From: Acidobacteriaceae bacterium
Lineage (GTDB): Bacteria; Acidobacteriota; Terriglobia; Bryobacterales; Bryobacteraceae
Direction of reading: 5' to 3'
DNA length: 33,672 nucleotides
Assembly (NCBI GenBank): GCA_019233375.1
Contig: JAFAMM010000131.1
Location: 1-33,672 of the forward strand
Shown here piece by piece: positions 17,333 to 29,376 of this stretch. The notes under the pieces are model-generated. The model made no database searches. It was given only the letters and a program-made list of their open reading frames with translations, and was not told where the DNA came from. Position numbers and translations under genes: made by a program. Each line of letters begins with the position of its first letter. Within the stretch, counting starts at the first letter, position 1.

Positions 17333-17860
17333 TTACTTCGCCGGGTAAGCCTTGTCGTATTCCACTGTCGCCTCGGCTGTAATGTCCAGTGCCGGCCGGT
17401 AGTAGATTGTATTGGTGATATCGATGACGACATCAAGTCCGCGCTGCTCGGCGATCTTCTTCACAACGTCCGCCATTTGACGGCCTGCCCGGCCCAGGAT
17501 ATCCTGGCGCTCGTTGTTCACGTCACTTTGTAGATCTTCGGTGAGTCTCTGTAGTTGCTTCTGTTTTTCAGTGCCGGTTTGACGAAGCTGCGCTTCCCTG
17601 TCCGGGGTCAGATTCTGGCCTCCCAACTGCTGTTGAATGCTGTTGAGCTCATTCTGGAGCGACTGAATCTGCTGCTGCCGGGGATTATACTTGGCCTGCA
17701 AAGTGGCTTGCGCTTTTTGGATCTCCTTGGTATCAGCGACGGCCTTCTGGGCGTTGATGATGGCCACCTTGGCGGGCGTTATCGGCGCCTGCGCATAAAG
17801 CGTCCCAGACACGGCTGCGATAGCGGCGAGGAGCATCATGCTCCGGACTTTCACAAACAT
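17333..17860 (-). CDS. OmpH/Skp-family periplasmic chaperone-like protein
   Basis: A 175-residue protein with signal peptide MFVKVRSMMLLAAIAAVSGTLYAQ. The start at ATG 17860 is chosen over the track's 17926 because it opens the signal sequence; an AGGAG lies rather far (13 nt) upstream. After VAIINAQKAVADTKEIQKAQ comes a long charged coiled coil (~residues 40-125, QQQIQSLQNELNSIQQQLGG) and a C-terminal part, GLDVVIDITNTIYYRPALDITAE, matching the OmpH/Skp layout. Such proteins are periplasmic chaperones holding unfolded outer-membrane proteins. It is a stand-alone copy downstream of hpnI, not beside bamA or lpxD, where skp usually sits, so it may be a paralogue. Confidence 0.87.
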   Translation of the reverse strand: MFVKVRSMMLLAAIAAVSGTLYAQAPITPAKVAIINAQKAVADTKEIQKAQATLQAKYNPRQQQIQSLQNELNSIQQQLGGQNLTPDREAQLRQTGTEKQKQLQRLTEDLQSDVNNERQDILGRAGRQMADVVKKIAEQRGLDVVIDITNTIYYRPALDITAEATVEYDKAYPAK

Positions 17861-17961
17861 TCGGTACTTTGATCTCCTATGGATTGTAGGTGCGGAGCAG
17901 TAACGCGTGAGGCGGGCTCCGGCCAATGGAAGACATTAGCCTACCACGCGAACTCGCAGCA

Positions 17962-19092
17962 TCAGCCATTCTGCTGCTCGATTTGGGAGCAGGACTGAAT
18001 GCGACCCTGTGCGTCGAGGACCATGATGCTGTCGCGCCACCGGACCTCCCAGCCAGCATAGGATGCAGCCCAAACCGCAAACGAGTACAGATCCCATGCT
18101 GGCGCCAACCAGCAAAATGCGGCCATTCGGCTCCGCGTTACGAATGCGGACGCAATAAAGGCCGCTAGCATGCGCGTGGCGGCAAGAACCGCCGCCGGAA
18201 CCCACGCCCCCATAGTGAGAGCAAGAAGCAGCCAGACACCGGCATGAGCAATCGGCAGACCCGCGTGGCCGCCAGGCTTCGAGGCCCGAATCGTACGTGC
18301 CCAGCGAAGTTGGTGCATCCATACCCCGGACCAGGAGTCCTGCCCAAGTGAGGTTTCGACCGTATATGTTGAAAGCAGGGCTCGCTTGCCCAGGCTCGTG
18401 AGCCGCTTCGCGAGCTGATAGTCATCGGCAATGTACGCGGCCACCGAGCGGAAGCCGCCGGCCCGTACGAGGTCCGCGGCACGGAACGCGAGTGTCGAGC
18501 CGAAGCCGAATTCGCGAACACCCAGCAACTGTGCCACCAGCGCACTCGGGATAAAATCTGTGGCAATTCCAAGCGACTCCCATGCCGCCGGAGCGGTATG
18601 CGCCATCGCGCGATACGGGCACGTGACCACGCCGATCGAGGAGTGCTCGAGCGGAGAAACAACCTGCGTCAAGTACTCCGGCGTCACTTTGATATCGCTG
18701 TCGTTCACGACCCATACCGGATAGCGCGCATGTTCGCTCAGCCGCATCAGCACTCCCACTTTGCCGTTAGCGGCGGCGTCGGCTCCGGTGATCAGACGAA
18801 CAGGTGCTTCTGGATGCGCGGCACGCAGGCGGTGAATTTCAGCCGCTGCCGGATCACTCTCGTCACGAACACCGAACAGGATTTCAAATTCAGGATATTG
18901 CTGCGCGATCTGCGACGCGAACGCTTCGCGGATGTTAGGATCCATGCCGCGGACCGGCTTGAGAACGGAAACGCCGGGACGGAAATTGGAGGGCCGGTAG
19001 GTCGCCCAACGCGTAAGGTGCCGCAGACCGGCAACAATCGCCAGCAACTGATAGGCAATCGCCGGTGCAAAAATGAGCCAAAACAAGCGCAC
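17962..19092 (-). CDS. hpnI: Hopanoid glycosyltransferase HpnI (GT21, ceramide-glucosyltransferase-like)
   Basis: A 376-residue family-21 glycosyltransferase, starting at GTG 19092, 11 nt after the upstream EamA stop. It has an N-terminal membrane helix (LFWLIFAPAIAYQLLAIVAG), the start of the catalytic domain VSVLKPVRGMDPNI, the DxD-like VVNDSD (D131, D133), a further acidic pair IADDYQLAKR (D223/D224) and the QLRWARTIR form of the (Q/R)xxRW signature (Q261-W264). C-terminal hydrophobic helices follow. In characterised hopanoid producers HpnI adds N-acetylglucosamine to bacteriohopanetetrol. The call is strengthened by hpnJ in the same minus-strand array. A ceramide glucosyltransferase is the alternative, but the context favours HpnI. 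The cytoplasmic face of the inner membrane is the expected site. Confidence 0.85.
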   Translation of the reverse strand: MRLFWLIFAPAIAYQLLAIVAGLRHLTRWATYRPSNFRPGVSVLKPVRGMDPNIREAFASQIAQQYPEFEILFGVRDESDPAAAEIHRLRAAHPEAPVRLITGADAAANGKVGVLMRLSEHARYPVWVVNDSDIKVTPEYLTQVVSPLEHSSIGVVTCPYRAMAHTAPAAWESLGIATDFIPSALVAQLLGVREFGFGSTLAFRAADLVRAGGFRSVAAYIADDYQLAKRLTSLGKRALLSTYTVETSLGQDSWSGVWMHQLRWARTIRASKPGGHAGLPIAHAGVWLLLALTMGAWVPAAVLAATRMLAAFIASAFVTRSRMAAFCWLAPAWDLYSFAVWAASYAGWEVRWRDSIMVLDAQGRIQSCSQIEQQNG

Positions 19093-19103
19093 GCTGCGCC
19101 GGA

Positions 19104-19463
19104 TCAGTGGGCAAGCAGCAGAACGCCGCCAAGAACGAGCAGCGCGCCGAAAGCCCGCCGTTTCCCTACCGCTTCTTTCAACACCAGTTTCGCCAGCAAC
19201 GTTTCGAGCACAAAAGTTGCGGCTGACGCCGGCACAGCGAAGCTCAAAGGCGCAATCTGCACGAGCGCCATAAACGCGAAGAAAGAGAATGCCATGCAGA
19301 TCACGGCAAGAATGAGATAGCGGCGGCTCACCAGCATGCGAAGAAGGCGGCCAAGACCCCGTGCATCCACGCTCTGCTCTCCGCTGAGTTTCATTTCATG
19401 ACTCTGCAGCACATCGGCCAGCACAGTCGCGACAACGATGATGGCCAGCAATACCCACTTCAT
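19104..19463 (-). CDS. EamA/SMR-like four-helix membrane protein (second of pair)
   Basis: A 119-residue protein with about four hydrophobic helices: MKWVLLAIIVVATVLADVLQ, a middle pair around YLILAVICMAFSFFAFMALV and SFAVPASAATFVLETLLAKL, and a last one, GALLVLGGVLLLAH. This is the half-size EamA/small-multidrug-resistance layout, which works as a dimer, often a heterodimer. The ATG overlaps the stop of the preceding EamA gene by one base (TAATG), so both halves are probably made together. The pair lies between hpnJ and hpnI, which suggests lipid head-group or sugar-lipid translocation by analogy with ArnE/ArnF-type flippases; that role is inference. Confidence 0.85.
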   Translation of the reverse strand: MKWVLLAIIVVATVLADVLQSHEMKLSGEQSVDARGLGRLLRMLVSRRYLILAVICMAFSFFAFMALVQIAPLSFAVPASAATFVLETLLAKLVLKEAVGKRRAFGALLVLGGVLLLAH

Positions 19464-19915
19464 TAGCAGGACTCCTGCGTCTTAAATTTCGTGCTTCCCA
19501 CCAAGGCGGTTCCGGCAAAGATCAGAAAAATGCCTGACCAGTGAACAGCGCTGATGGTTTCGTGCAGGAACATCTTGCCGAGAACCGCAGCCATGACGTA
19601 CGCCGTCCCAGTAACAGGCAAAACGAAACTCAGATCTGCCCAGCTTAAAAGCGCCATGCGAGTCAGCATCCACAAAACGAGCAGCACGATCCCGAGTTCG
19701 ACAAAAGGATTCGCCATGGCAGCCAAATACTCGAGCGGGTTCGTTCGGACCGTTGAGCTGTGCCGCATGCCCCAGGCGAGCGCCAGGTCGCCGAACGAAT
19801 TCAGCGACACGACCACCAACACCAAAACCAACGTTTTCAGCCTTGCGGCCCGTTCGCACAACGGCGAGCCAGGCTCGCCGACCAGGCCGGCGGCGAGGTC
19901 CGCGTGAACCGGCAA
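19463..19915 (-). CDS. EamA/SMR-like four-helix membrane protein (first of pair)
   Basis: A protein of up to 150 residues with four helices: TLVLVLVVVSLNSFGDLALAW, then PFVELGIVLLVLWMLTRMAL, LSFVLPVTGTAYVMAAVLGK and HWSGIFLIFAGTALVGS. The start is uncertain. The track start is TTG 19915, directly after the hpnJ stop. Other in-frame TTGs (19861, 19831) would put the start nearer the first helix and leave a palindrome in the leader. No ATG is available before the first helix. The conserved Glu in FLHETISAVHW is typical of EamA halves. It is coupled to the second half-size gene by a one-base overlap. Probably one half of a heterodimeric transporter for a hopanoid intermediate, or else a generic small transporter. 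Confidence 0.82.
   Translation of the reverse strand: MPVHADLAAGLVGEPGSPLCERAARLKTLVLVLVVVSLNSFGDLALAWGMRHSSTVRTNPLEYLAAMANPFVELGIVLLVLWMLTRMALLSWADLSFVLPVTGTAYVMAAVLGKMFLHETISAVHWSGIFLIFAGTALVGSTKFKTQESC
19862..19880. repeat. 19-bp perfect palindrome between hpnJ and the first EamA gene
   Basis: CGGCGAGCC, a single A and GGCTCGCCG form a perfect inverted repeat with 9-bp arms. It lies within the disputed 5' part of the first EamA gene, about 33 bp after the hpnJ stop. It may be a REP-like element or a stem that tunes expression inside the operon. No second copy was noticed in the window. Confidence 0.4.
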
Positions 19916-21388
19916 TTAGTCTCCCGAACTCAGCACGGCCGGCTGCTGGCTCTTCTGATCTTTTTGTTCCCTTACGAACTGCTTGCGTTTCGAGCGGAGG
20001 GAAAGATACTCGCGCGCCTCTTTATAGAGCCGCCGGCGCTCGCTGTTATCAAACATTGCCTTACCGATCAGGCGAAGAGCGACCTTCGGACGGAAATAAA
20101 ACTCGCCATAGAAACGCTCAACCCAGTCGACGAGCTCGGCCCGGTCCAGCCCCGGATACTGATAGTTCGGAAGCTGGTGCCCGGCCTCGTCGGTCATGAT
20201 CTCATCTATGGTGATCAGACCGTTCTTTTTGACATGGTCATAGAATTCCGTACCCGGGAACGGATGTCCGATGGAGACCTGTATCGTTTCGACGTCAAGT
20301 TCCTTGGCAAAATCAATGCTCTTGCGAATGGTTTCGCGTGTCTCGCCGGGAAGGCCGACGATGAAGTCGCCGTGAATCGTCAAACCTAGCTTCTTGCAGT
20401 TGGCGGTGAAACGGCGCGCCATGTCGATCGTGGCGCCTTTCTTGATGTTCTTGAGGATCTGCTGATCGCCTGATTCGTAGCCGACAATGAGCAGGCGGCA
20501 ACCGGCATCCTTCATCGCCTTCAACGTGTCATAGTCGGTAGTGACGCGCGACGTACAGCTCCAGGTGAAGTTCAGCTTTTTGAGCTTCGCGCAAAGCTCA
20601 ATGGTACGGGCTTTCTGATAATTGAACGTATCGTCGTCGAAAAAGATTTCTTTGAGACCGGAAAAATTCTCTAGCGCCCAACGGCATTCGTTTACTATGT
20701 CGTCCGATGAACGAAGGCGCCAGCGATGCCCGGAATGGGTCTGCGGCCAGAGACAGAACGTGCATTGCGCCGGGCATCCGCGCGTCGTGTAGAAAGCAAT
20801 ATACGGATTCAGCAGAAACGGCACGTTGTAGCGGCGAAAATCCAGATCTCGCTTATAGACTTTCGTCACCCACGGCAGAGCGTCCAGATCCTCAATCACA
20901 GGCGCTTCCGGATTGTGCTGGAAGCCGCCGTTCTTGCGGAACACAACGCTCGGCACCTCTTCAAGCGGTTTCCCCATAGCGAAGTCACGGATCGAATAAT
21001 CGAACTCGCGTTTCACCACGAAATCGATCGCTGATGATGCGCGCAGGCTTTTTTCCGGCTCAATCGTGACCGGCGGACCCACAAACGCCACCTTCAGTTT
21101 TGGGTTTACGTCCTTCATCATCTCGGCGATTTTCACGTCAACATTGAAACCGGGCGTTGATGTGAAGAGCACGAGCAGTTCAAAATCGGACGCCATCGCC
21201 ACCGTTTGCTCGATGGAAATCTTGTGCGGCGGCGCGTCTACGACTTTGCTATCAGGGATGAGCCCGGCAGGATAGCAAATCCAGACCGGGTACCAATAAG
21301 ATTCGATCTCGCGAGCGGCCGGCCAGCGCGAACCGGCTCCGCCGTCAAACCCCTCAAAAGAAGGGGGATTTAAAAAAAGCGTTCTCAT
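19916..21388 (-). CDS. hpnJ: Hopanoid-associated radical SAM protein HpnJ
   Basis: A 490-residue radical SAM enzyme. The opening MRTLFLNPPSFEGFDGGAGS is a hallmark of HpnJ. The [4Fe-4S] motif TRGCPAQCTFC gives C205, C209 and C212, and a SAM-binding GYESGD segment follows. An N-terminal domain (residues ~1-190) resembles the cobalamin-binding-like region of this class. In characterised systems HpnJ converts bacteriohopanetetrol glucosamine into the cyclitol-ether form by ring contraction. The start ATG 21388 has GGGAG close upstream. It heads the minus-strand array hpnJ, EamA, EamA, hpnI. The deacetylase HpnK that normally supplies the glucosamine substrate is not in the window. The family call is strong. 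Confidence 0.93.
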   Translation of the reverse strand: MRTLFLNPPSFEGFDGGAGSRWPAAREIESYWYPVWICYPAGLIPDSKVVDAPPHKISIEQTVAMASDFELLVLFTSTPGFNVDVKIAEMMKDVNPKLKVAFVGPPVTIEPEKSLRASSAIDFVVKREFDYSIRDFAMGKPLEEVPSVVFRKNGGFQHNPEAPVIEDLDALPWVTKVYKRDLDFRRYNVPFLLNPYIAFYTTRGCPAQCTFCLWPQTHSGHRWRLRSSDDIVNECRWALENFSGLKEIFFDDDTFNYQKARTIELCAKLKKLNFTWSCTSRVTTDYDTLKAMKDAGCRLLIVGYESGDQQILKNIKKGATIDMARRFTANCKKLGLTIHGDFIVGLPGETRETIRKSIDFAKELDVETIQVSIGHPFPGTEFYDHVKKNGLITIDEIMTDEAGHQLPNYQYPGLDRAELVDWVERFYGEFYFRPKVALRLIGKAMFDNSERRRLYKEAREYLSLRSKRKQFVREQKDQKSQQPAVLSSGD

Positions 21389-21510: not shown

Positions 21511-22332
21511 TTACTCAGAGGCTTCGGCTACAGTTGCCGGCGCGCTCTTTCCCGTGTCTTCATCAGAGCCAGGTGCAAAATTTGAGTATTCTACGCTGAG
21601 TTCGACCCTGCCAACAATACGGGCTTCTATCGTGCTGGTTAGATATTCGGGTACGGACATGCCCTGCTCGATATTGTAGCCACGCTCGAAATTCACTCTC
21701 TTCATGACGAGGCTCGGGCTCTTCACGAGTCGCCCTTTTTCGAGGATGGGCAGGCACGTCTCTGCATCGAGCCAAAGTTCGCCTTTGAATAAGCCAACAC
21801 GCTTCTTCCTGGGCGTAACCTCAAACACATAAACACTCGGACCCATGTTCGCGTCGCGTTGTCCTTTGAATCTGAACTTGTAATTCGCGGGAACAATAGC
21901 CATCTGGTCCTCCTGGCGGACGCCTTGGTCCATTTGCAGGTAACGGGCGATCACCTCGCGCTTAACCGTATCGTCACCCTGGAATGAGAGAACGCGATAT
22001 GTGCTGTGGCCTACTCTGGATATCTGTTTGAGCACCCGCATATGGCCTCGCTTTTGAAGTCTCGGAAGCGAGGCACTGATATCCATTTGCACGGATCCGC
22101 TGGAAGTCCGGGCGTCCGGGTTTCGAGCAGCGGCGACGTATTTATCAAGAATGCTGGCCGCGAACTCTGGCGAAGCGCTATACCCGTTAATCCCGTTTTC
22201 GCAGAATGCAACCGAAGACAGAGATAACGTAAGCGCAATAAGCAGTGAAAATAAAGTTTTCAAGTGAATTTGAGACAAACGGCGACATTCCTGACGAAAG
22301 CACATATCCGGAAGCGGCGTTACGAATCGCAT
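21511..22332 (-). CDS. LolA-like secreted protein (outer-membrane lipoprotein-sorting-like)
   Basis: A protein of about 270 residues. A hydrophobic signal segment, LKTLFSLLIALTLSLSSVAF, follows a basic N-terminus. ATG 22332 and ATG 22305 are both possible starts and neither has a Shine-Dalgarno sequence. The mature part looks like a LolA/LolB-type half-barrel: alternating beta strands such as GHMRVLKQISRVGHSTYRVL, YKFRFKGQRD and a late GELWLDAETCLPILEKGRLV, the 'stored-residue' strand common in acidobacterial lipoprotein-sorting-like proteins. It probably binds a lipid or lipoprotein in the periplasm. It is divergent from the amidoligase operon (179-bp gap) and 122 bp after hpnJ begins, so a link to either is unproven. 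The fold call is by pattern and moderate. Confidence 0.6.
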   Translation of the reverse strand: MRFVTPLPDMCFRQECRRLSQIHLKTLFSLLIALTLSLSSVAFCENGINGYSASPEFAASILDKYVAAARNPDARTSSGSVQMDISASLPRLQKRGHMRVLKQISRVGHSTYRVLSFQGDDTVKREVIARYLQMDQGVRQEDQMAIVPANYKFRFKGQRDANMGPSVYVFEVTPRKKRVGLFKGELWLDAETCLPILEKGRLVKSPSLVMKRVNFERGYNIEQGMSVPEYLTSTIEARIVGRVELSVEYSNFAPGSDEDTGKSAPATVAEASE

Positions 22333-22511: not shown

Positions 22512-23222
22512 ATGCGCCGCGATTACCACAACTGGTACAGCACCCGGCTGGGTCACAACATGGAAATGCTCGTCCATGGGCACGCCGGAACTCCCGTGCT
22601 TGTCTTCCCGTCCTCCCGCGGAAAGTTTTTCGAATACGAAAACACGGGCATGGTTCACGCGGTCTCGGGGAAAATCGATGCCGGACAACTGCAGCTGTTT
22701 TGTGTCGACAGCATCGATGGCGAAAGCTGGTACAACCGCAGCATCCATCCTCATGATCGCGTGATGCGGCACATAGCTTTCGAGAACTACATTCTTTATG
22801 AAGTCATTCCGCTCATTAAAGGCGTGAATGGGGCGCAGCAGATTACGACGACGGGCTGCAGCTTGGGCGCATACCATGCGTTCAACTTTGCACTTCGCCA
22901 TCCAGACGTCGTCTGGGCCTGTATCGCAATGAGCGGCTCCTTCGACATGCGCTCCTTTATGAATGGCTACTACGACCAGGACTTCTACTTCAATAACCCG
23001 GTGGATTACATTCCGAACATCAATGATCCGTGGTTTCTGGATCGCTACCGCCAGATGAAAATTGTGCTGGCTGCCGGTGATTGGGATATCTGCCTCGGAG
23101 ACAACTTCAACATGGCTCACCTTCTCGGCAGCAAGGGAATACCACACTGGCTGGATGTCTGGACCGGAGGAGAACGCCACGACTGGCCGTTATGGCAGAG
23201 GATGGCGGTAAAATTCTTCTAA
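22512..23222 (+). CDS. Esterase-family alpha/beta hydrolase, first gene of amidoligase operon
   Basis: A 236-residue alpha/beta hydrolase of the putative esterase (PF00756, esterase D) kind. The nucleophile elbow is GCSLG (S117), with a probable acid in GDWDICLGDN (D192) and the catalytic His in GGERHDW (H223). The order and spacing fit the family. There is no signal peptide, so a cytoplasmic enzyme is likely. The start ATG 22512 has only a weak upstream purine stretch. It is followed after 62 nt by an ATP-grasp gene and then by GCS2 and M29 peptidase genes, so it may cleave an ester, thioester or amide in the metabolite made by those ligases. It could also be an independent esterase. Confidence 0.87.
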   Translation: MRRDYHNWYSTRLGHNMEMLVHGHAGTPVLVFPSSRGKFFEYENTGMVHAVSGKIDAGQLQLFCVDSIDGESWYNRSIHPHDRVMRHIAFENYILYEVIPLIKGVNGAQQITTTGCSLGAYHAFNFALRHPDVVWACIAMSGSFDMRSFMNGYYDQDFYFNNPVDYIPNINDPWFLDRYRQMKIVLAAGDWDICLGDNFNMAHLLGSKGIPHWLDVWTGGERHDWPLWQRMAVKFF

Positions 23223-23284
23223 CCCTGCGCGGGGAAATTTCTAGCGGCGCAACGGCGCACCTGGCCGTTCAAGAAGGAGAGCGG

Positions 23285-24247
23285 ATGAAGAAAATCGGGG
23301 TGATCTATGGGATGGAGAATACGTTCCCATCCGCCCTGGTGGAGCGAATCAATAACAAGAAGCTCCCGGACGTGACGGCCGAGCACATCCGCATCGGGGC
23401 CGTGAAGATGGCCGAGCCGAGTGGTTACAAGGTAATCGTCGATCGGATTTCACACGATATCGATTTCTATCGCGCCTATCTGAAAAACGCAGTCCTGACG
23501 GGAACGTTTGTTATCAACAATCCTTTCTGGTGGTCGGCCGACGACAAATTCTTCAACTACTCGCTGGCGAGCAAAATCGGTGTGGCGGTACCGAAGACTG
23601 TGGTCCTACCCCACAAAATGCATCCGCCCGGAACCAGCGTGCAGTCGATGCGCAACCTGGCATTCCCTCTTAATTGGGACGAAGTGTTCGACTACATCGG
23701 ATTCCCCGCCTTCCTGAAGCCCTTCAGTGGCGGCGGCTGGAAGCATGTCTTCAAGGTAAATAGCCGTGATGAATTCTTCGAGGCTTATGATCAGACCGGC
23801 ATGCTCTGCATGACTCTGCAGTCGGCCGTCGAATTCACGGACTACTTCCGCTGCTACGTGGTAGGGCAGGAGAAGGTTCGGGTGATGAAGTACGATCCGA
23901 AACAGCCCCACCATTTGCGCTACGTGCGCGACGAAGATCCGAGCGCTCATCATCTTTACCAGCGCGTGGTAAAGGACTGCGTTACGTTATGCCGGGCGCT
24001 TGGCTATGACTTCAACACGGTTGAGTTTGCGGTTCAAGACGGAATTCCGTACGCGATTGACTTCTTGAATCCGGCCCCTGACGCCGACGTTCACTCCGTT
24101 GGAGAGGCGAATTTTGAGTGGGTGGTGGAAAACGTGGCGCAGCTCGCGATCGAAAAGGCGCGCAGCGAGGAGCAGCCGCGAACAGAATACCGCTGGAATT
24201 CCTTCTTGAACGGAGCGCGCGAGCACGCCGCCATGGCGGTGCGGTAG
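23285..24247 (+). CDS. ATP-grasp ligase, amidoligase operon
   Basis: A 320-residue protein starting at ATG 23285, with AGGAG upstream; the track start at 23081 lies inside the esterase gene. The ATP-grasp lysine lies in FPAFLKPFSGGGWKHVF, and the metal-binding C-terminal motif is NTVEFAVQDGIPYAIDFLNP, with Glu, Asp and Asn ligands. A glycine-rich loop sits between them. ATP-grasp enzymes activate a carboxylate as acyl-phosphate and join it to an amine, thiol or similar group. It is cytoplasmic, lying between the esterase and a GCS2-type ligase, which predicts a role in building a peptide-like or amide-linked compound. It has not been matched to a named enzyme such as D-Ala-D-Ala ligase, RimK or glutathione synthetase. 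Confidence 0.85.
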   Translation: MKKIGVIYGMENTFPSALVERINNKKLPDVTAEHIRIGAVKMAEPSGYKVIVDRISHDIDFYRAYLKNAVLTGTFVINNPFWWSADDKFFNYSLASKIGVAVPKTVVLPHKMHPPGTSVQSMRNLAFPLNWDEVFDYIGFPAFLKPFSGGGWKHVFKVNSRDEFFEAYDQTGMLCMTLQSAVEFTDYFRCYVVGQEKVRVMKYDPKQPHHLRYVRDEDPSAHHLYQRVVKDCVTLCRALGYDFNTVEFAVQDGIPYAIDFLNPAPDADVHSVGEANFEWVVENVAQLAIEKARSEEQPRTEYRWNSFLNGAREHAAMAVR

Positions 24248-24287
24248 CCGTGTTGAAGCAATCGGGGCGAAACGTAGAGGTGATGCC

Positions 24288-25427
24288 ATGAGACCTAGCC
24301 TGACGTTAGGGATCGAAGAAGAGTATCAGGTTGTCGATCCTGTCACGCGCGATCTGCGCTCTCACATTGATGCGGAGATCATCTCGAAAGGAAAAACGCT
24401 GCTAAAGGAAGCAGTGAAAGCCGAGATGCACCAATCGGTTGTAGAGGTGGGCACGGGCATCTGCCAGGACATTGGCGAGGCCGGACGGCAGATCAAGTGT
24501 CTTAGACTACAGATCTGCGATTTGGCGAAACAGAATGGCCTGCGTCTTGCGGCTGCGGGTACGCACCCGTTCGCGGACTGGCGCAAGCAGGACATTTATC
24601 CCGACGAGCGCTATCAAATCATCGTTCAGGATTTGAAGATCGTCGCCAGGGCAAATCTCATCTTCGGCCTACACGTGCATGTTGGAGTGGAAGATCGCGA
24701 GACCGCGATTCATTTGATGAATGCCGCCCGCTACTTCCTGCCCCACATTCTCGCGCTCTCGACCAACTCGCCGTTCTGGCTCGGGATGGACACGGGACTG
24801 AAATCGTATCGCTGCAAAGTGTTCGACAAATTTCCGCGAACGAATATTCCAGACTACTTCCCCAGCTACGGCGAGTATCAGAATTTCGTTAACCTGTTGG
24901 TGAAAACTAACTGCATCGATAATGCCAAGAAGATCTGGTGGGATATCCGGCCGCACCCGAACTTCCCGACGCTCGAGTTCCGAATCTGCGATGTTCCCAT
25001 GCGGGCGGACGAGACGATCGCGATTACCGCTCTGATTCAAGCCACCATTGCGAAACTCTACAAGCTGCACGCCGCGAATCAGGGATTCCGGCTGTACCGG
25101 CGAGCTTTAATCATGGAAAACAAGTGGCGTGCGGCGCGCTACGGAATTGACGGCAAAATCATTGATTTCGGTAAGCAGACGGAAGTGCCCGTCCGCGATT
25201 TGATCTACGAGTACCTGGATTTCGTCGAAGACGTAGTGGATGAGCTGGGGTCGCGCAACGAAATCAACTACATACACCGTATCCTGGAGCATGGCACGGG
25301 AGCCGACCGGCAATTAAGAATCTTCCAGGAGACGGGAGATCTAACAAAAGTGGTGGATTACATAGTCTATGAGACAGAGGCCGGCCTCTCGAGGGAACTC
25401 GTCGAAGCCGGCGCAGCCCGACAATGA
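24288..25427 (+). CDS. Carboxylate-amine ligase, GCS2 family (YbdK-like)
   Basis: A 379-residue protein of the glutamate-cysteine ligase type 2 family. The family motifs are all visible: LGIEEEYQVVDP at the start, HQSVVEVGTG, AAGTHPFADW, GLHVHVGV, NSPFWLGMDTGLKSYR and WDIRPHPNFPTLEFRICD. The E/H metal and ATP sites thus appear intact. Members such as E. coli YbdK join amino acids, often weakly; the natural acceptor is unknown for most. The start ATG 24288 lies 40 nt after the ATP-grasp gene, and the stop overlaps the M29 peptidase ATG as ATGA, so they are probably translated together. In this context it likely joins an amino acid to a small carboxylate. Confidence 0.9.
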   Translation: MRPSLTLGIEEEYQVVDPVTRDLRSHIDAEIISKGKTLLKEAVKAEMHQSVVEVGTGICQDIGEAGRQIKCLRLQICDLAKQNGLRLAAAGTHPFADWRKQDIYPDERYQIIVQDLKIVARANLIFGLHVHVGVEDRETAIHLMNAARYFLPHILALSTNSPFWLGMDTGLKSYRCKVFDKFPRTNIPDYFPSYGEYQNFVNLLVKTNCIDNAKKIWWDIRPHPNFPTLEFRICDVPMRADETIAITALIQATIAKLYKLHAANQGFRLYRRALIMENKWRAARYGIDGKIIDFGKQTEVPVRDLIYEYLDFVEDVVDELGSRNEINYIHRILEHGTGADRQLRIFQETGDLTKVVDYIVYETEAGLSRELVEAGAARQ

Positions 25428-26446
25428 CATCCAATTCGACTAACAGTAGATCGTTCGATCCCGAACTTATCCCAGGCGCGCATAACGCCATTTTTGTGTG
25501 CCTTAAGGTGCAACCGGCCGAGAAGGTGACCCTGATCACAGATCATGCCTGTGAGGAGATCGCAGCCAGTCTGGCGGACCAGCTCGACCGTACCGGCTGC
25601 CGGTATGGCGTTTATGTGCTGGAAAATCTTGCGCCGCGTCCGCTGACGAATATGCCCCGGGAGATCCTCGACGACATGGAATCGAGCCAGGTCAGCATCT
25701 TCGCCGTGCAGGCGCAGCCCGATGAACTGAAGACGCGCATGCAGATGTGCGAGGTGGTGAACCGCAAGAAGCTGCGCCACGCTCACATGGTCAACATCGA
25801 GAAGCGAATCATGCTGAACGGCATGCGGGCGGATTTCAATGAGGTCGACGAGTTGACGCTGCGCGTAATGAACATCGTCAACAAGGCCAAGCGTATTCGA
25901 GCGGTAACTCCGGCCGGAACAGATATAGTTGCTGAACTCTCGCCCGAGTACAACTGGATCAAAACCAGCGGCATCATCAGCCGCGATAAATGGGGCAATC
26001 TGCCGGGCGGCGAGACTTTCACGGCGCCGCTCGAAGTAAATGGCACCTTCGTAGTGGATGGCGTGGTCGGCGATTACCTCTGCGCGAAATTCGGAGATCT
26101 GAAGAACAATCCGCTGATGTTGAAAGTGGAACGAAACCGCCTGACCGGAGTCTCTTGCTCCAATCAGGATCTTCGGGACGAGTTCTGGAACTACACCCAT
26201 CGCGATGCGAACAGCGACCGTGTGGGCGAATTCGCGATCGGAACCAATATCGCTTGCACCGAGGTGGTCGGCAACATTCTGCAGGACGAGAAGATTCCAG
26301 GCGTACACATGGCATTTGGCGACCCCTACGGCGCGCACACGGGGGCGCCCTGGAGTTCGACCACTCACATCGACGTGGTCGGCAGAAATTTTGATATCTG
26401 GGCCGACGAGCGCCAGATTATGCGAAGCGGCCACTTCATCGTATAA
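25424..26446 (+). CDS. Aminopeptidase, M29 (thermophilic metallopeptidase) family
   Basis: A 340-residue metallo-aminopeptidase without a signal peptide. The M29 signature segments are present: LPGGETFTAP (E197), GEFAIGTN (E269), LQDEKIPGVHMAFGDPYG (E289, H295) and STTHIDVV (H315, D317), matching the metal ligands of the family in order and spacing. M29 enzymes are cobalt- or zinc-dependent exopeptidases acting on short peptides. The gene overlaps the GCS2 ligase by four bases and is followed 11 nt later by the second ATP-grasp-like gene. Being locked into a ligase operon suggests that it trims, recycles or matures the amide product rather than serving general peptide turnover. That role is inference; the family call is not in doubt. 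Confidence 0.92.
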   Translation: MTSNSTNSRSFDPELIPGAHNAIFVCLKVQPAEKVTLITDHACEEIAASLADQLDRTGCRYGVYVLENLAPRPLTNMPREILDDMESSQVSIFAVQAQPDELKTRMQMCEVVNRKKLRHAHMVNIEKRIMLNGMRADFNEVDELTLRVMNIVNKAKRIRAVTPAGTDIVAELSPEYNWIKTSGIISRDKWGNLPGGETFTAPLEVNGTFVVDGVVGDYLCAKFGDLKNNPLMLKVERNRLTGVSCSNQDLRDEFWNYTHRDANSDRVGEFAIGTNIACTEVVGNILQDEKIPGVHMAFGDPYGAHTGAPWSSTTHIDVVGRNFDIWADERQIMRSGHFIV

Positions 26447-26457
26447 AGAACCGCCGC

Positions 26458-27651
26458 GTGATACCCCAATTACGCCGGCAGTTCAACGAAAGCTACACAC
26501 CAGAGCTATATGCCCGCTTCTTGAGCCGGCTCGACGAAGCCGCCGGAACTCATGTCGAGTTCCGCTGCAGCGAAACACCCGTGTTTTTGCCTCCGGCGCT
26601 GCTGAACAAAATGGTGCGTTATGGCCAGGAACTGTATCAGCAGTTAGCCGATAACCCGGATTACCGGCGCGCCTCCGATGCAGCCATTCCAAATGACTTC
26701 CGGGTGCCGGGCGAATCGGACCATCCGCTTTTTCTTCAGGTGGATTTTGGCCTGGTTCGCGAACCCGGCGGCGGATTGGAGCCGAAACTTGTAGAAATTC
26801 AGGGCTTCCCCTCCATCTATGCTTTCCAGGTCGAGATGGCGCACGAATACCAGCGCGCGTATCGCCTGCGCGAGTTCGATGCGAACCTTACGCCATTTCT
26901 CGGCAGCCTCGATGACGAGAGCTTTCGCAATCTGCTGAAACGCACGATCCTCGGAGCGCACGAACCGCAGGAAGTCGTGCTGCTCGAGATTGACCCCTAC
27001 CACCAGAAAACGCTGCCCGACTTTCTCGCGACGGAAAGACTTCTCGGGATCAAAATCATCAACATCTCCGAAGTGAAGAAGCGCGGGCGCGAGCTTTACA
27101 CGCCAAACGGTAAACCGATTCGCCGGATATATAACCGGGTGATCGTGGATGAACTAATCAGGAAGTCCGTACGATCGGAATTTAAGCTAACCGACGATGT
27201 GGATGTCGAGTGGGCGGGGCATCCGAACTGGTTTTTTCGCATCAGCAAGTTCTCGCTTCCCTGGTTTCGTCATGAATGCGTTCCGGAAACCACTTTTCTC
27301 GCCAACTTGAAATCATTGCCTGACAATCTGGACGACTACGTTCTGAAACCGCTTTACTCGTTCGCCGGATTGGGTGTGAAGATTGCGCCTTCGAGAGAAG
27401 AAGTCGAGCAGATCCCGCACGGCCGGCGAGCAGAGTTCATTCTGCAGCGCAGAATGGATTTCGTGCCCACAATCGAAACGCCTGTGGGATTGACAAAAGT
27501 GGAAGTTCGCATCATGTATATCTGGGATCGCGGATTGCAGCCGGTGACGACCGTGATACGCACAGGCCGGGGCAAGATGATGGGAGTAGACTTCAACAAG
27601 GACCTCACGTGGGTGGGTGCATCCGCCGGGTTCACTGTGCGCGATTCTTAA
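26458..27651 (+). CDS. Divergent ATP-grasp-like protein, unknown substrate
   Basis: A 397-residue cytoplasmic protein starting at GTG 26458, without a clear Shine-Dalgarno sequence. I could not assign a named family. The C-terminal half has ATP-grasp features in an arrangement recalling glutathionylspermidine-synthase or circularly permuted members: YVLKPLYSFAGLGVKIAPSR (candidate ATP lysine and Gly loop), EFILQRRMDFVPTIETP and VEVRIMYIWD, where acidic residues could bind metal. The N-terminal half contains LEPKLVEIQGFPSIYAFQ, which resembles the EIN.DGFPS-like substrate pocket of such enzymes. It follows the M29 peptidase by 11 nt and precedes phosphoglucomutase. Together with the first ATP-grasp and the GCS2 it would give three ligase-like enzymes in one operon. 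Confidence 0.7.
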   Translation: MIPQLRRQFNESYTPELYARFLSRLDEAAGTHVEFRCSETPVFLPPALLNKMVRYGQELYQQLADNPDYRRASDAAIPNDFRVPGESDHPLFLQVDFGLVREPGGGLEPKLVEIQGFPSIYAFQVEMAHEYQRAYRLREFDANLTPFLGSLDDESFRNLLKRTILGAHEPQEVVLLEIDPYHQKTLPDFLATERLLGIKIINISEVKKRGRELYTPNGKPIRRIYNRVIVDELIRKSVRSEFKLTDDVDVEWAGHPNWFFRISKFSLPWFRHECVPETTFLANLKSLPDNLDDYVLKPLYSFAGLGVKIAPSREEVEQIPHGRRAEFILQRRMDFVPTIETPVGLTKVEVRIMYIWDRGLQPVTTVIRTGRGKMMGVDFNKDLTWVGASAGFTVRDS

Positions 27652-27657
27652 AGCTTT

Positions 27658-27687
27658 GGTCCGCTCCGTTTCAGATGGAAGCGGGCC
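27658..27687 (+). other. Imperfect hairpin between ATP-grasp-like gene and phosphoglucomutase
   Basis: GGTCCGCT and AGCGGGCC pair over eight positions (one G-U) across a 14-nt loop. An A-run, not a U-run, follows, so it does not look like a standard intrinsic terminator on the plus strand. It could partially separate expression of phosphoglucomutase from the ligase genes or be a processing site. Confidence 0.3.
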
Positions 27688-27714
27688 TTCAAAAAAGAAC
27701 GTAGAGGAGGTCGC

Positions 27715-29376
27715 ATGCCTATCGACAAGAATGCGGGCAAACCCGCAAACCCCTCACAGCTCATCAACGTTCCGCGCCTTATCGCGAGCTACTATTCGCT
27801 GAAGCCTGATCCGCACGAAGTGTCGCAGCGCGTGTCGTTCGGCACCTCTGGCCACAGAGGGTCATCTTACACGGCAAGCTTCAACGAGAACCACATACTC
27901 GCCATCACCCAGGCGATCTGCAGATATCGCGAGCGGCAGGGCACAACCGGACCCTTATTTCTCGGCATGGATACGCACGCGCTCTCCGAGCCCGCGTTCA
28001 TGAGCGCGCTGGAAGTGCTCGCCGCCCACCATATCGAGGTAATGATTGACGAGGCTGGCGGATACACTCCCACGCCTTCTCTTTCGCACGCGATTCTCAA
28101 GCACAATCGGCATCGCAAAGCTGGTCTAGCGGACGGAATCGTCATCACGCCGTCGCACAATCCTCCCGAAGATGGCGGTTTCAAGTACAACCCGCCTTCT
28201 GGCGGCCCGGCGGATACGGGCGCCACAAAGTGGATTGAGAACCATGCAAACGAACTGCTCGCGAACCACATGCGCGACGTCGTCCGCGTCCCGTTTGAAA
28301 GAGCGGTCCGTGCGTCTTCCACCAAGCGTTACGACTATGTTTCGCATTATGTGAACGAGCTGAACTCTGTCGTGAACCTGGATGTTGTGAAGCAGGCTGG
28401 CCTGAAGCTGGCGGTCGACCCGCTGGGAGGTGCGGGGGTGGCCTACTGGCCGCGGATTGCCGAACGTTTTGGGCTCAACCTGACCGTTGTGAATACAACG
28501 GTCGATCCTACGTTTCGCTTCATGACGCTCGACTGGGACGGCAAGATTCGGATGGACTGTTCATCGCCCTACGCTATGGCAAGTCTGATCGCGCTGAAAG
28601 ACCGCTTCGACATCGCGTTTGCGTGCGACACCGACCATGACCGCCACGGAATCGTGACGCGCACAGGCGGATTGTTGAACCCCAATCATTACCTTGCGGT
28701 CGCGATCGAGTACCTCTACCAGAACCGCCCGCACTGGAAAAAGGACGCCGGAGTGGGCAAGACGCTGGTTAGCAGCAGCATCATCGACCGCGTGGTGAAG
28801 GATTTGGGCCGGAAGCTCGTTGAGGTGCCGGTCGGGTTCAAGTGGTTCGTCGATGGCTTGCTCGATGGCTCACTCGGTTTCGGCGGGGAAGAGAGTGCCG
28901 GCGCCTCATTTCTGCGCCATGATTGCGCCGCATGGAGCACGGATAAGGACGGTCTCATCATGGGATTGCTCTCGGCAGAGATCACCGCCATCACGAAAAA
29001 AGATCCCGGCGAGCTATATGTTGACATGACCAAAAAGTACGGTAATCCGGTATACGAACGCATCGATGCGCGGGCCACCACGGAAGAGAAGGCGATTCTG
29101 AGCAAGCTTTCGCCGGAACAGGTCGCCGCAACCGAATTGGCCGGAGAGAAGATCGAAGCCATGCTGACAACCGCGCCCGGCAACGGCGCGCCCCTCGGAG
29201 GACTGAAGGTCGTTACGAAAAACGGCTGGTTCGCAGCCCGGCCGTCCGGTACTGAGGAGGTTTACAAGATTTACGCTGAAAGCTTCCTCGGCGAAGACCA
29301 TCTTAAACGGATCCAGCAGGAAGCGCAGAAGCTGATTTCGCGCACATTTGAAAGCGCGGGGGCCGCGAAGGCCTGA
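27715..29376 (+). CDS. pgm: Phosphoglucomutase (alpha-D-glucose phosphate-specific)
   Basis: A 553-residue phosphohexomutase, the normal length for alpha-D-glucose phosphate-specific Pgm. The active-site serine is in [20 protein letters not shown] (S147), the magnesium loop is DTDHDRHG (D305, D307, D309), the sugar loop is [10 protein letters not shown] and the phosphate loop is [12 protein letters not shown]. The enzyme interconverts glucose-1-phosphate and glucose-6-phosphate for glycogen, trehalose and nucleotide-sugar supply. ATG 27715 has an excellent GAGGAGG eight nt upstream. It runs in the same direction as the ligase operon with a 63-nt gap holding a hairpin, so it may be co-transcribed or only adjacent. 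The call is firm; linkage to the ligases is not established. Confidence 0.95.

Follow-up and report, generated by a model that had tools for sequence, protein, structure and literature searches.

How does a hopanoid that carries a sugar-derived head group pass from the cytoplasmic to the periplasmic side of the inner membrane in soil Acidobacteriota? The question is raised by a contig of 33,672 nt from an Acidobacteriaceae bacterium (JAFAMM010000131.1, assembly GCA_019233375.1; the whole of this stretch is referred to here as the window), in which two genes of hopanoid head-group synthesis, hpnJ and hpnI, enclose two half-size genes of the EamA/SMR type, labelled smrA and smrB here. The comparisons described below favour, with a probability of about two in three, the view that SmrA and SmrB form an antiparallel SMR/EamA-type heterodimer that would work specifically on hopanoids, as a glycolipid flippase resembling ArnEF.

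The array is real and lies on the minus strand at 21388-17962, where an earlier sequence-only reading of this DNA had placed it, and the order of transcription is a gene for a 273-aa protein (22332-21511), hpnJ, smrA, smrB and hpnI. HpnJ passes its curated model as a whole protein (TIGR03471, 771.8 bits against a cut-off of 577.6) and carries the radical-SAM motif RGCPAQCTFC, and HpnI is marginal, at 310.1 bits against a cut-off of 310 for TIGR03472 and 309.5 bits in the genome scan. For EamA (PF00892), SmrB scores 31.5 bits, above the gathering threshold of 28.2, and SmrA falls slightly below it at 27.4. hpnJ and smrA directly adjoin (0 nt apart), smrA and smrB overlap by 1 nt (TAATG), and a gap of 11 nt precedes hpnI; the abutment of hpnJ with smrA and the overlap of the smrA stop with the smrB start have the usual look of translational coupling. 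The start of smrA is uncertain, the in-frame TTG at 19861 being the one that agrees with the N-terminus of relatives. Within the window an Rfam scan gave no match, and promoter and terminator scans gave matches at chance level only. The host genome, a 4.79-Mb draft assembly of 492 contigs that is 93.6% complete and belongs to the Bryobacterales (Acidobacteriota, subdivision 3-like), carries two of the genes for which a search had been recommended on the basis of the window, squalene-hopene cyclase (shc) and hpnH, on one contig (C382), and should therefore make hopanoids.

Linkage of the pair with hopanoid genes is far beyond chance, because genomes hold only one or two such pairs each and the same gene order recurs across families and phyla. 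In a first set of 61 hpnJ regions, made up of that of the window and 60 of relatives, the pair stands directly downstream of hpnJ in 53, usually followed by hpnI (in L024 smrA is the last gene before the contig end). Of the eight exceptions, one is G006 and seven belong to a single family, f3 (G061, G063, G064, G068, G070, G074, G077), and all eight have an adjacent A/B pair elsewhere, in G077 immediately before hpnI. A scan of GTDB genomes gave 80 named loci, raised by a few additions to 83, in a set that overlaps the first; here the pair follows hpnJ in 70 loci, and most of the remainder are contig ends, loci of the f3 type, cyanobacteria and two proteobacterial controls. One locus (L152) has lost the pair between hpnJ and hpnI, yet a pair is kept elsewhere in its genome. 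The order hpnJ-hpnK-smrA-smrB-hpnI is found in Blastocatellia AA13 (L205), in an acidobacterial metagenome-assembled genome (MAG; L204) and in a Myxococcota MAG (L208), and the order hpnJ-smrA-smrB-hpnI-hpnK in G096. Rhizonema/Scytonema cyanobacterial MAGs have an hpnI homologue followed by smrA-smrB, and in the MAG of L203/L250 hpnI-smrA-smrB shares a contig with an hpnJ-hpnK-hpnI cluster. Several acidobacterial lineages retain the pair with hpnJ though hpnI lies elsewhere (L188, L189, L192, L202, L215), and no pair match was found in ten genomes that lack both HpnJ and HpnH. The lack of conservation that was to count against a hopanoid role in the sequence-only reading is thus not what is seen, the pair being kept with hpnJ and/or hpnI in Acidobacteriota, in a Myxococcota MAG and in cyanobacteria.

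Some of these loci have a history or setting of their own. The native pair of G006 is gone from between hpnJ and hpnI (L234 6408-8830, G006:C34), and a different pair lies near a second hpnI; it clusters in the tree with pairs of other acidobacterial families, and may represent a gene replacement or a contaminant contig in the bin. The cyanobacterial MAG loci L198 and L203 contain hpnJ, two hpnK-like genes and hpnI, and in a Scytonema MAG hpnI-smrA-smrB lies ~10 kb from the hpnJ cluster and is followed by a gene for an Mntp/TauE-like membrane protein.

The two proteins are distinct and complementary. A tree built from 134 proteins of the A and B types, with few alignment columns and weak deep branches, divides consistently into two halves, A and B (97/87), and each pair contributes one member to either half; the division holds for pairs from hpnK-containing operons and for f3 pairs, and the smrA of the window falls in the A clade. 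Charge bias, taken as the even-minus-odd count of lysine plus arginine, averages +2.4 for SmrA (positive in 42 of 51) and -8.3 for SmrB (negative in all 52), with values of +3/-7 for E. coli ArnF/ArnE by the identical count. Opposite charge bias is a hallmark of antiparallel paired SMRs (PMC9574504), and SmrA and SmrB have both of the features by which such pairs are recognized, adjacent subunits of four predicted transmembrane segments and opposite lysine-plus-arginine bias. The opposite bias of what appear to be two ancient clades therefore predicts an antiparallel heterodimer, as in ArnE/ArnF, and supports the heterodimer that had been proposed from the window. An AlphaFold model of SmrB (predicted local distance difference test, pLDDT, 78) matches the EmrE/Gdx fold with a Foldseek probability of 1.00, at TM-scores of about 0.6-0.7 normalised to the query and modest E-values of 0.02-0.1. 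The profiles of SmrA and SmrB align best to ArnE among ArnE, ArnF and EmrE; a PDB sequence search returned distant DMT/NIPA/SLC35 matches only. At the position of EmrE Glu14, 51 of 52 SmrB proteins have Asp or Glu and 43 of 51 SmrA proteins have Asn, the SmrA of the window having Asp. Asn is frequent at this position in lipid SMRs, whose cargo is non-cationic (PMC9574504), and a mixed Asn/acid pair would suit a lipid that bears an amine and no phosphate. A natural smrA-smrB fusion, which would be evidence of the Rosetta-stone kind, was considered and rejected, the 319-aa candidate of L168 and other long open reading frames being start-codon extensions or out-of-frame overlaps.

The likeness to ArnE/ArnF, the flippase of undecaprenyl-phosphate-4-amino-4-deoxy-L-arabinose, extends beyond the adjacency of two half-size SMR genes whose products are opposite in charge bias and beyond profiles that span full-length ArnE, since both operons transfer an amino sugar to a lipid and an N-acyl group is removed before flipping. 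The systems differ in presumed cargo, a hopanoid as against undecaprenyl phosphate, in scores that fall below the ArnE cut-off, and in the first transmembrane segment, where ArnE has Gln and SmrB has Asp or Glu; the ArnF model matches neither SmrA nor SmrB. HpnI depends on a nucleotide sugar, HpnJ belongs to the radical-SAM enzymes and the HpnK candidate discussed below has no signal peptide, so that all three should act in the cytoplasm and the likely cargo is finished bacteriohopanetetrol (BHT)-glucosamine or BHT cyclitol ether. The flippase for a head-group intermediate suggested by the sequence-only reading is supported as to its probable function and revised as to its cargo, which is more likely the finished, aminated hopanoid. 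In the model that we infer for transport, substrate, direction and the downstream carrier step, HpnI would add N-acetylglucosamine (GlcNAc) to BHT in the cytoplasm, a YdjC-type deacetylase (here probably the mlaF-mlaD-linked protein of contig C270) would free the amine, HpnJ would make the cyclitol ether, SmrAB would flip the finished amine-bearing hopanoid, a BHT glycoside or cyclitol ether, to the periplasmic leaflet, and a lineage-specific carrier or exporter may pass it on towards the outer membrane, a LolA-fold protein here and a MacAB-TolC-type system in other families.

The absence of hpnK from the window, noted at the outset, was confirmed, and a search of the genome for it gave as the only match to TIGR03473 a sub-threshold YdjC protein of 257 aa on C270 (173.9 bits against a cut-off of 232.6; ChbG model, 159; PF04794, 219.4 against a gathering threshold of 29.7, which it passes). 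The unlinked or different deacetylase that had been supposed thus has a concrete candidate, the gene for which lies directly behind mlaF-mlaD (L001 1-2271, G000:C270) and apart from the hpn genes. The N-terminus of this protein runs straight into the catalytic motif MKQLIVNADDFG, with no signal peptide. The mlaF-mlaD-ydjC operon is kept in Bryobacterales, most relatives have an orthologue of the protein, in many cases likewise linked to mlaF-mlaD, and this arrangement would tie a candidate hopanoid deacetylase to the Mla lipid-transport system. The protein encoded beside hpnI in G096 falls in a large clade with the mla-linked ones (100/99, midpoint-rooted tree). Some YdjC match is present in each of the 63 hpnJ-positive genomes of good quality, and in 60 of them it is a strong one; the association of HpnK with HpnJ (Fisher p about 5e-9) ignores phylogeny and draws on negatives that lack the whole of hopanoid synthesis. 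On balance the C270 YdjC protein is slightly more likely than not to be the working HpnK of the host. The over-cut-off HpnK matches of G045 and G049 were rejected as the HpnK of this group, as both group apart from the acidobacterial set, and that of G049 in addition lies inside an ArnT-type amino-sugar cluster.

That cluster (L134 4611-10938, G049:C23) is a row of genes for an HpnI-like glycosyltransferase, a YdjC deacetylase, a single SMR protein, a DegT-like aminotransferase, an epimerase and an ArnT-like transferase, and probably represents an amino-sugar lipid A route in an acidobacterium. It may be compared with NaxD/ArnT-like amino-sugar routes. The succession of glycosyltransferase, YdjC deacetylase and SMR flippase is common to the G049 row and to the SmrAB system, the former ending in an ArnT-like transferase and not in HpnJ.

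Several observations weigh against a flippase dedicated to hopanoids, for which the tie is one of guilt by association. Neither protein reaches the curated ArnE cut-off of 92 bits (SmrB 30.5, SmrA 17.9; NF011625/NF002816). Most pairs of family f3 are unlinked to hpn genes, and many hopanoid producers, among them Mycetohabitans and Methylobacterium, have no pair beside hpnIJK. Hopanoid synthesis as a whole is missing from the ten genomes that have no pair, and the profile is not specific to the cyclitol-ether branch. The host itself has a second, long-branched smrA-smrB pair (L230 5103-5899, G000:C126), related to that of G001, which adjoins a gene for a full-length EamA-like protein and is diverged and in a context unrelated to hpn. 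Finally, G086, in which hpnI and the pair occur with neither hpnJ nor hpnH, indicates that the pair can act for another GlcNAc-type lipid and may be broader in specificity.

Taken further, this last observation would make SmrAB a flippase of GlcNAc- or glucosamine-bearing lipids generally, with hopanoids as one client and an HpnI-type glycosyltransferase as the common partner, and the amino-sugar row of G049, with its HpnI-like glycosyltransferase and one SMR protein, and the second hpnI found elsewhere in most genomes point the same way. Such generality is nevertheless unlikely, given that the pair stays with hpnJ in the five loci whose hpnI is elsewhere and that the single SMR protein of G049 is set far apart on the pair tree, on a very long branch (1.61). 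If SmrAB were an ordinary SMR-type exporter for some small soluble cation or metabolite and travelled with hpn genes by happenstance, this would account for the match of the fold to EmrE and Gdx and for the acidic residue of SmrB at the EmrE Glu14 position, which is often Asn in published lipid SMRs (PMC9574504). The free amine of the hopanoid product, however, makes the acidic residue compatible with hopanoid cargo as well, and happenstance is a poor explanation for compact, overlapping genes, for linkage to hpnJ and/or hpnI in two bacterial phyla and a Myxococcota MAG, and for the missing pair in the ten genomes without HpnJ and HpnH, so that a soluble cargo is quite improbable. The tight coupling of the genes with hpnJ could also be read as that of a membrane chaperone or scaffold for HpnI and HpnJ, but a conserved SMR fold of four transmembrane segments, conserved membrane residues and an opposite charge bias typical of working paired transporters make a role other than transport very improbable indeed.

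If SmrAB is a hopanoid flippase, it has partial counterparts elsewhere. The paired SMRs EbrAB/MdtIJ, along with EmrE/Gdx, resemble it in four transmembrane segments, antiparallel assembly (predicted for SmrAB), an acidic residue of the first segment in one subunit, and fold; SmrAB differs in lying in the context of a lipid pathway, no conserved drug- or guanidinium-related setting being seen. HpnL of proteobacterial hpnIJKL clusters is similar in position, a membrane protein gene right after hpnIJK (Mycetohabitans) corresponding to the place of the pair here, but it belongs to a lysyl-phosphatidylglycerol-synthase-like family unrelated to SMR, and may have been displaced by the pair. The RND transporter HpnN is described, in a recent survey that cites the original work, as moving hopanoids towards the outer membrane (PMC12583986), whereas genes for a putative LolA-fold protein or of MacAB-TolC type adjoin hpnJ instead. 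The survey gives HpnN as the sole listed transporter and the functions of HpnL, HpnM, HpnA and HpnB as unresolved (PMC12583986), and a literature search found no paper that ties an EamA/SMR pair to hopanoids.

The genes around the array (Table 1) bear on outward transport. The gene for the 273-aa protein is found upstream of hpnJ in 32 of 61 loci, and 23 of 28 relatives match PF17131 LolA_like at E<=1 (best 3.7e-7), the window copy itself having no Pfam match. Its AlphaFold model (mean pLDDT 85.5) has the LolA superfamily as its top PDB fold matches; all thirteen that reach E<=0.001 belong to LolA/LolB, MucB or the related DUF1329, at TM-scores of only 0.2-0.4. Other families have upstream of hpnJ genes for a membrane-fusion protein, a MacB-type permease, a TPR protein and TolC, not all of them everywhere (L056, L068, L082, L089, L132, L188, L190, L192, L195, L202, L210, L212, L215, L216). 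No HpnL (TIGR03476) was over cut-off among 100 relatives and no HpnN among 30, and it may be hypothesized that the LolA-fold and MacAB-TolC-type genes displace them. The OmpH/Skp-like gene is kept downstream of hpnI in this genus only (L049, L054, L057, L062, L066, L067) and is probably not part of the module.

Table 1. Features of the hpnJ-smrA-smrB-hpnI array and its flanks in the window
Feature	Coordinates	Strand	Length	Description
Putative LolA-fold protein gene	21511..22332	-	273 aa	periplasmic/outer-membrane protein; upstream of hpnJ, 122-nt gap
hpnJ	19916..21388	-	490 aa	radical SAM bacteriohopanetetrol cyclitol ether synthase; B12-binding and radical SAM domains
smrA	19463..19915	-		half-size EamA/SMR protein; four predicted transmembrane segments, predicted N-in; start TTG 19915 or 19861
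smrB	19104..19463	-		half-size EamA/SMR protein; four predicted transmembrane segments, predicted N-out
hpnI	17962..19092	-	376 aa	GT21-type glycosyltransferase; PF13506 138.8 bits
OmpH/Skp-like protein gene	17333..17926	-		downstream of hpnI; PF03938 78.5 bits

On the plus strand of the window, at 22512-29376, a row of genes for an esterase, a possible ATP-grasp-like protein, a GCS2-type carboxylate-amine ligase, an M29-like peptidase and another ligase-like protein may be a small cluster for peptide or amide biosynthesis. Outside the Acidobacteriota, plasmid 1 of Lawsonia intracellularis encodes an HpnJ-like radical SAM protein of 35% identity (L219 9001-10464), the setting of which is a glycan-type cluster with glycosyltransferases and methyltransferases and not a hopanoid cluster.

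As far as sequence comparison can tell, SmrA and SmrB represent an SMR-pair subfamily, most probably a flippase, that is bound to hopanoid head-group synthesis and lies outside the ArnE and ArnF families by curated models. One can tentatively picture a non-proteobacterial, acidobacterial route in which an SMR heterodimer and a LolA-fold (Bryobacteraceae) or MacAB-TolC-type step replace HpnL and HpnN, with a diverged HpnK tied to Mla. A survey of cultivated Acidobacteria (2017) reported that subdivisions 1 and 3 have hpnI and hpnJ and lack hpnK, and both were inferred to be unable to make BHT cyclitol ether for want of it (PMC5462960); the unlinked YdjC candidate bears on that inference, and hence on the use of BHT cyclitol ether as a biomarker in soils and sediments. 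Given the consistent retention of the pair with hopanoid-decorating enzymes, SmrAB probably supplies, in soil Acidobacteriota, the missing flippase by which the finished hopanoid crosses the inner membrane. A conserved, compact flippase candidate makes this step in the biogenesis of composite hopanoids directly testable.

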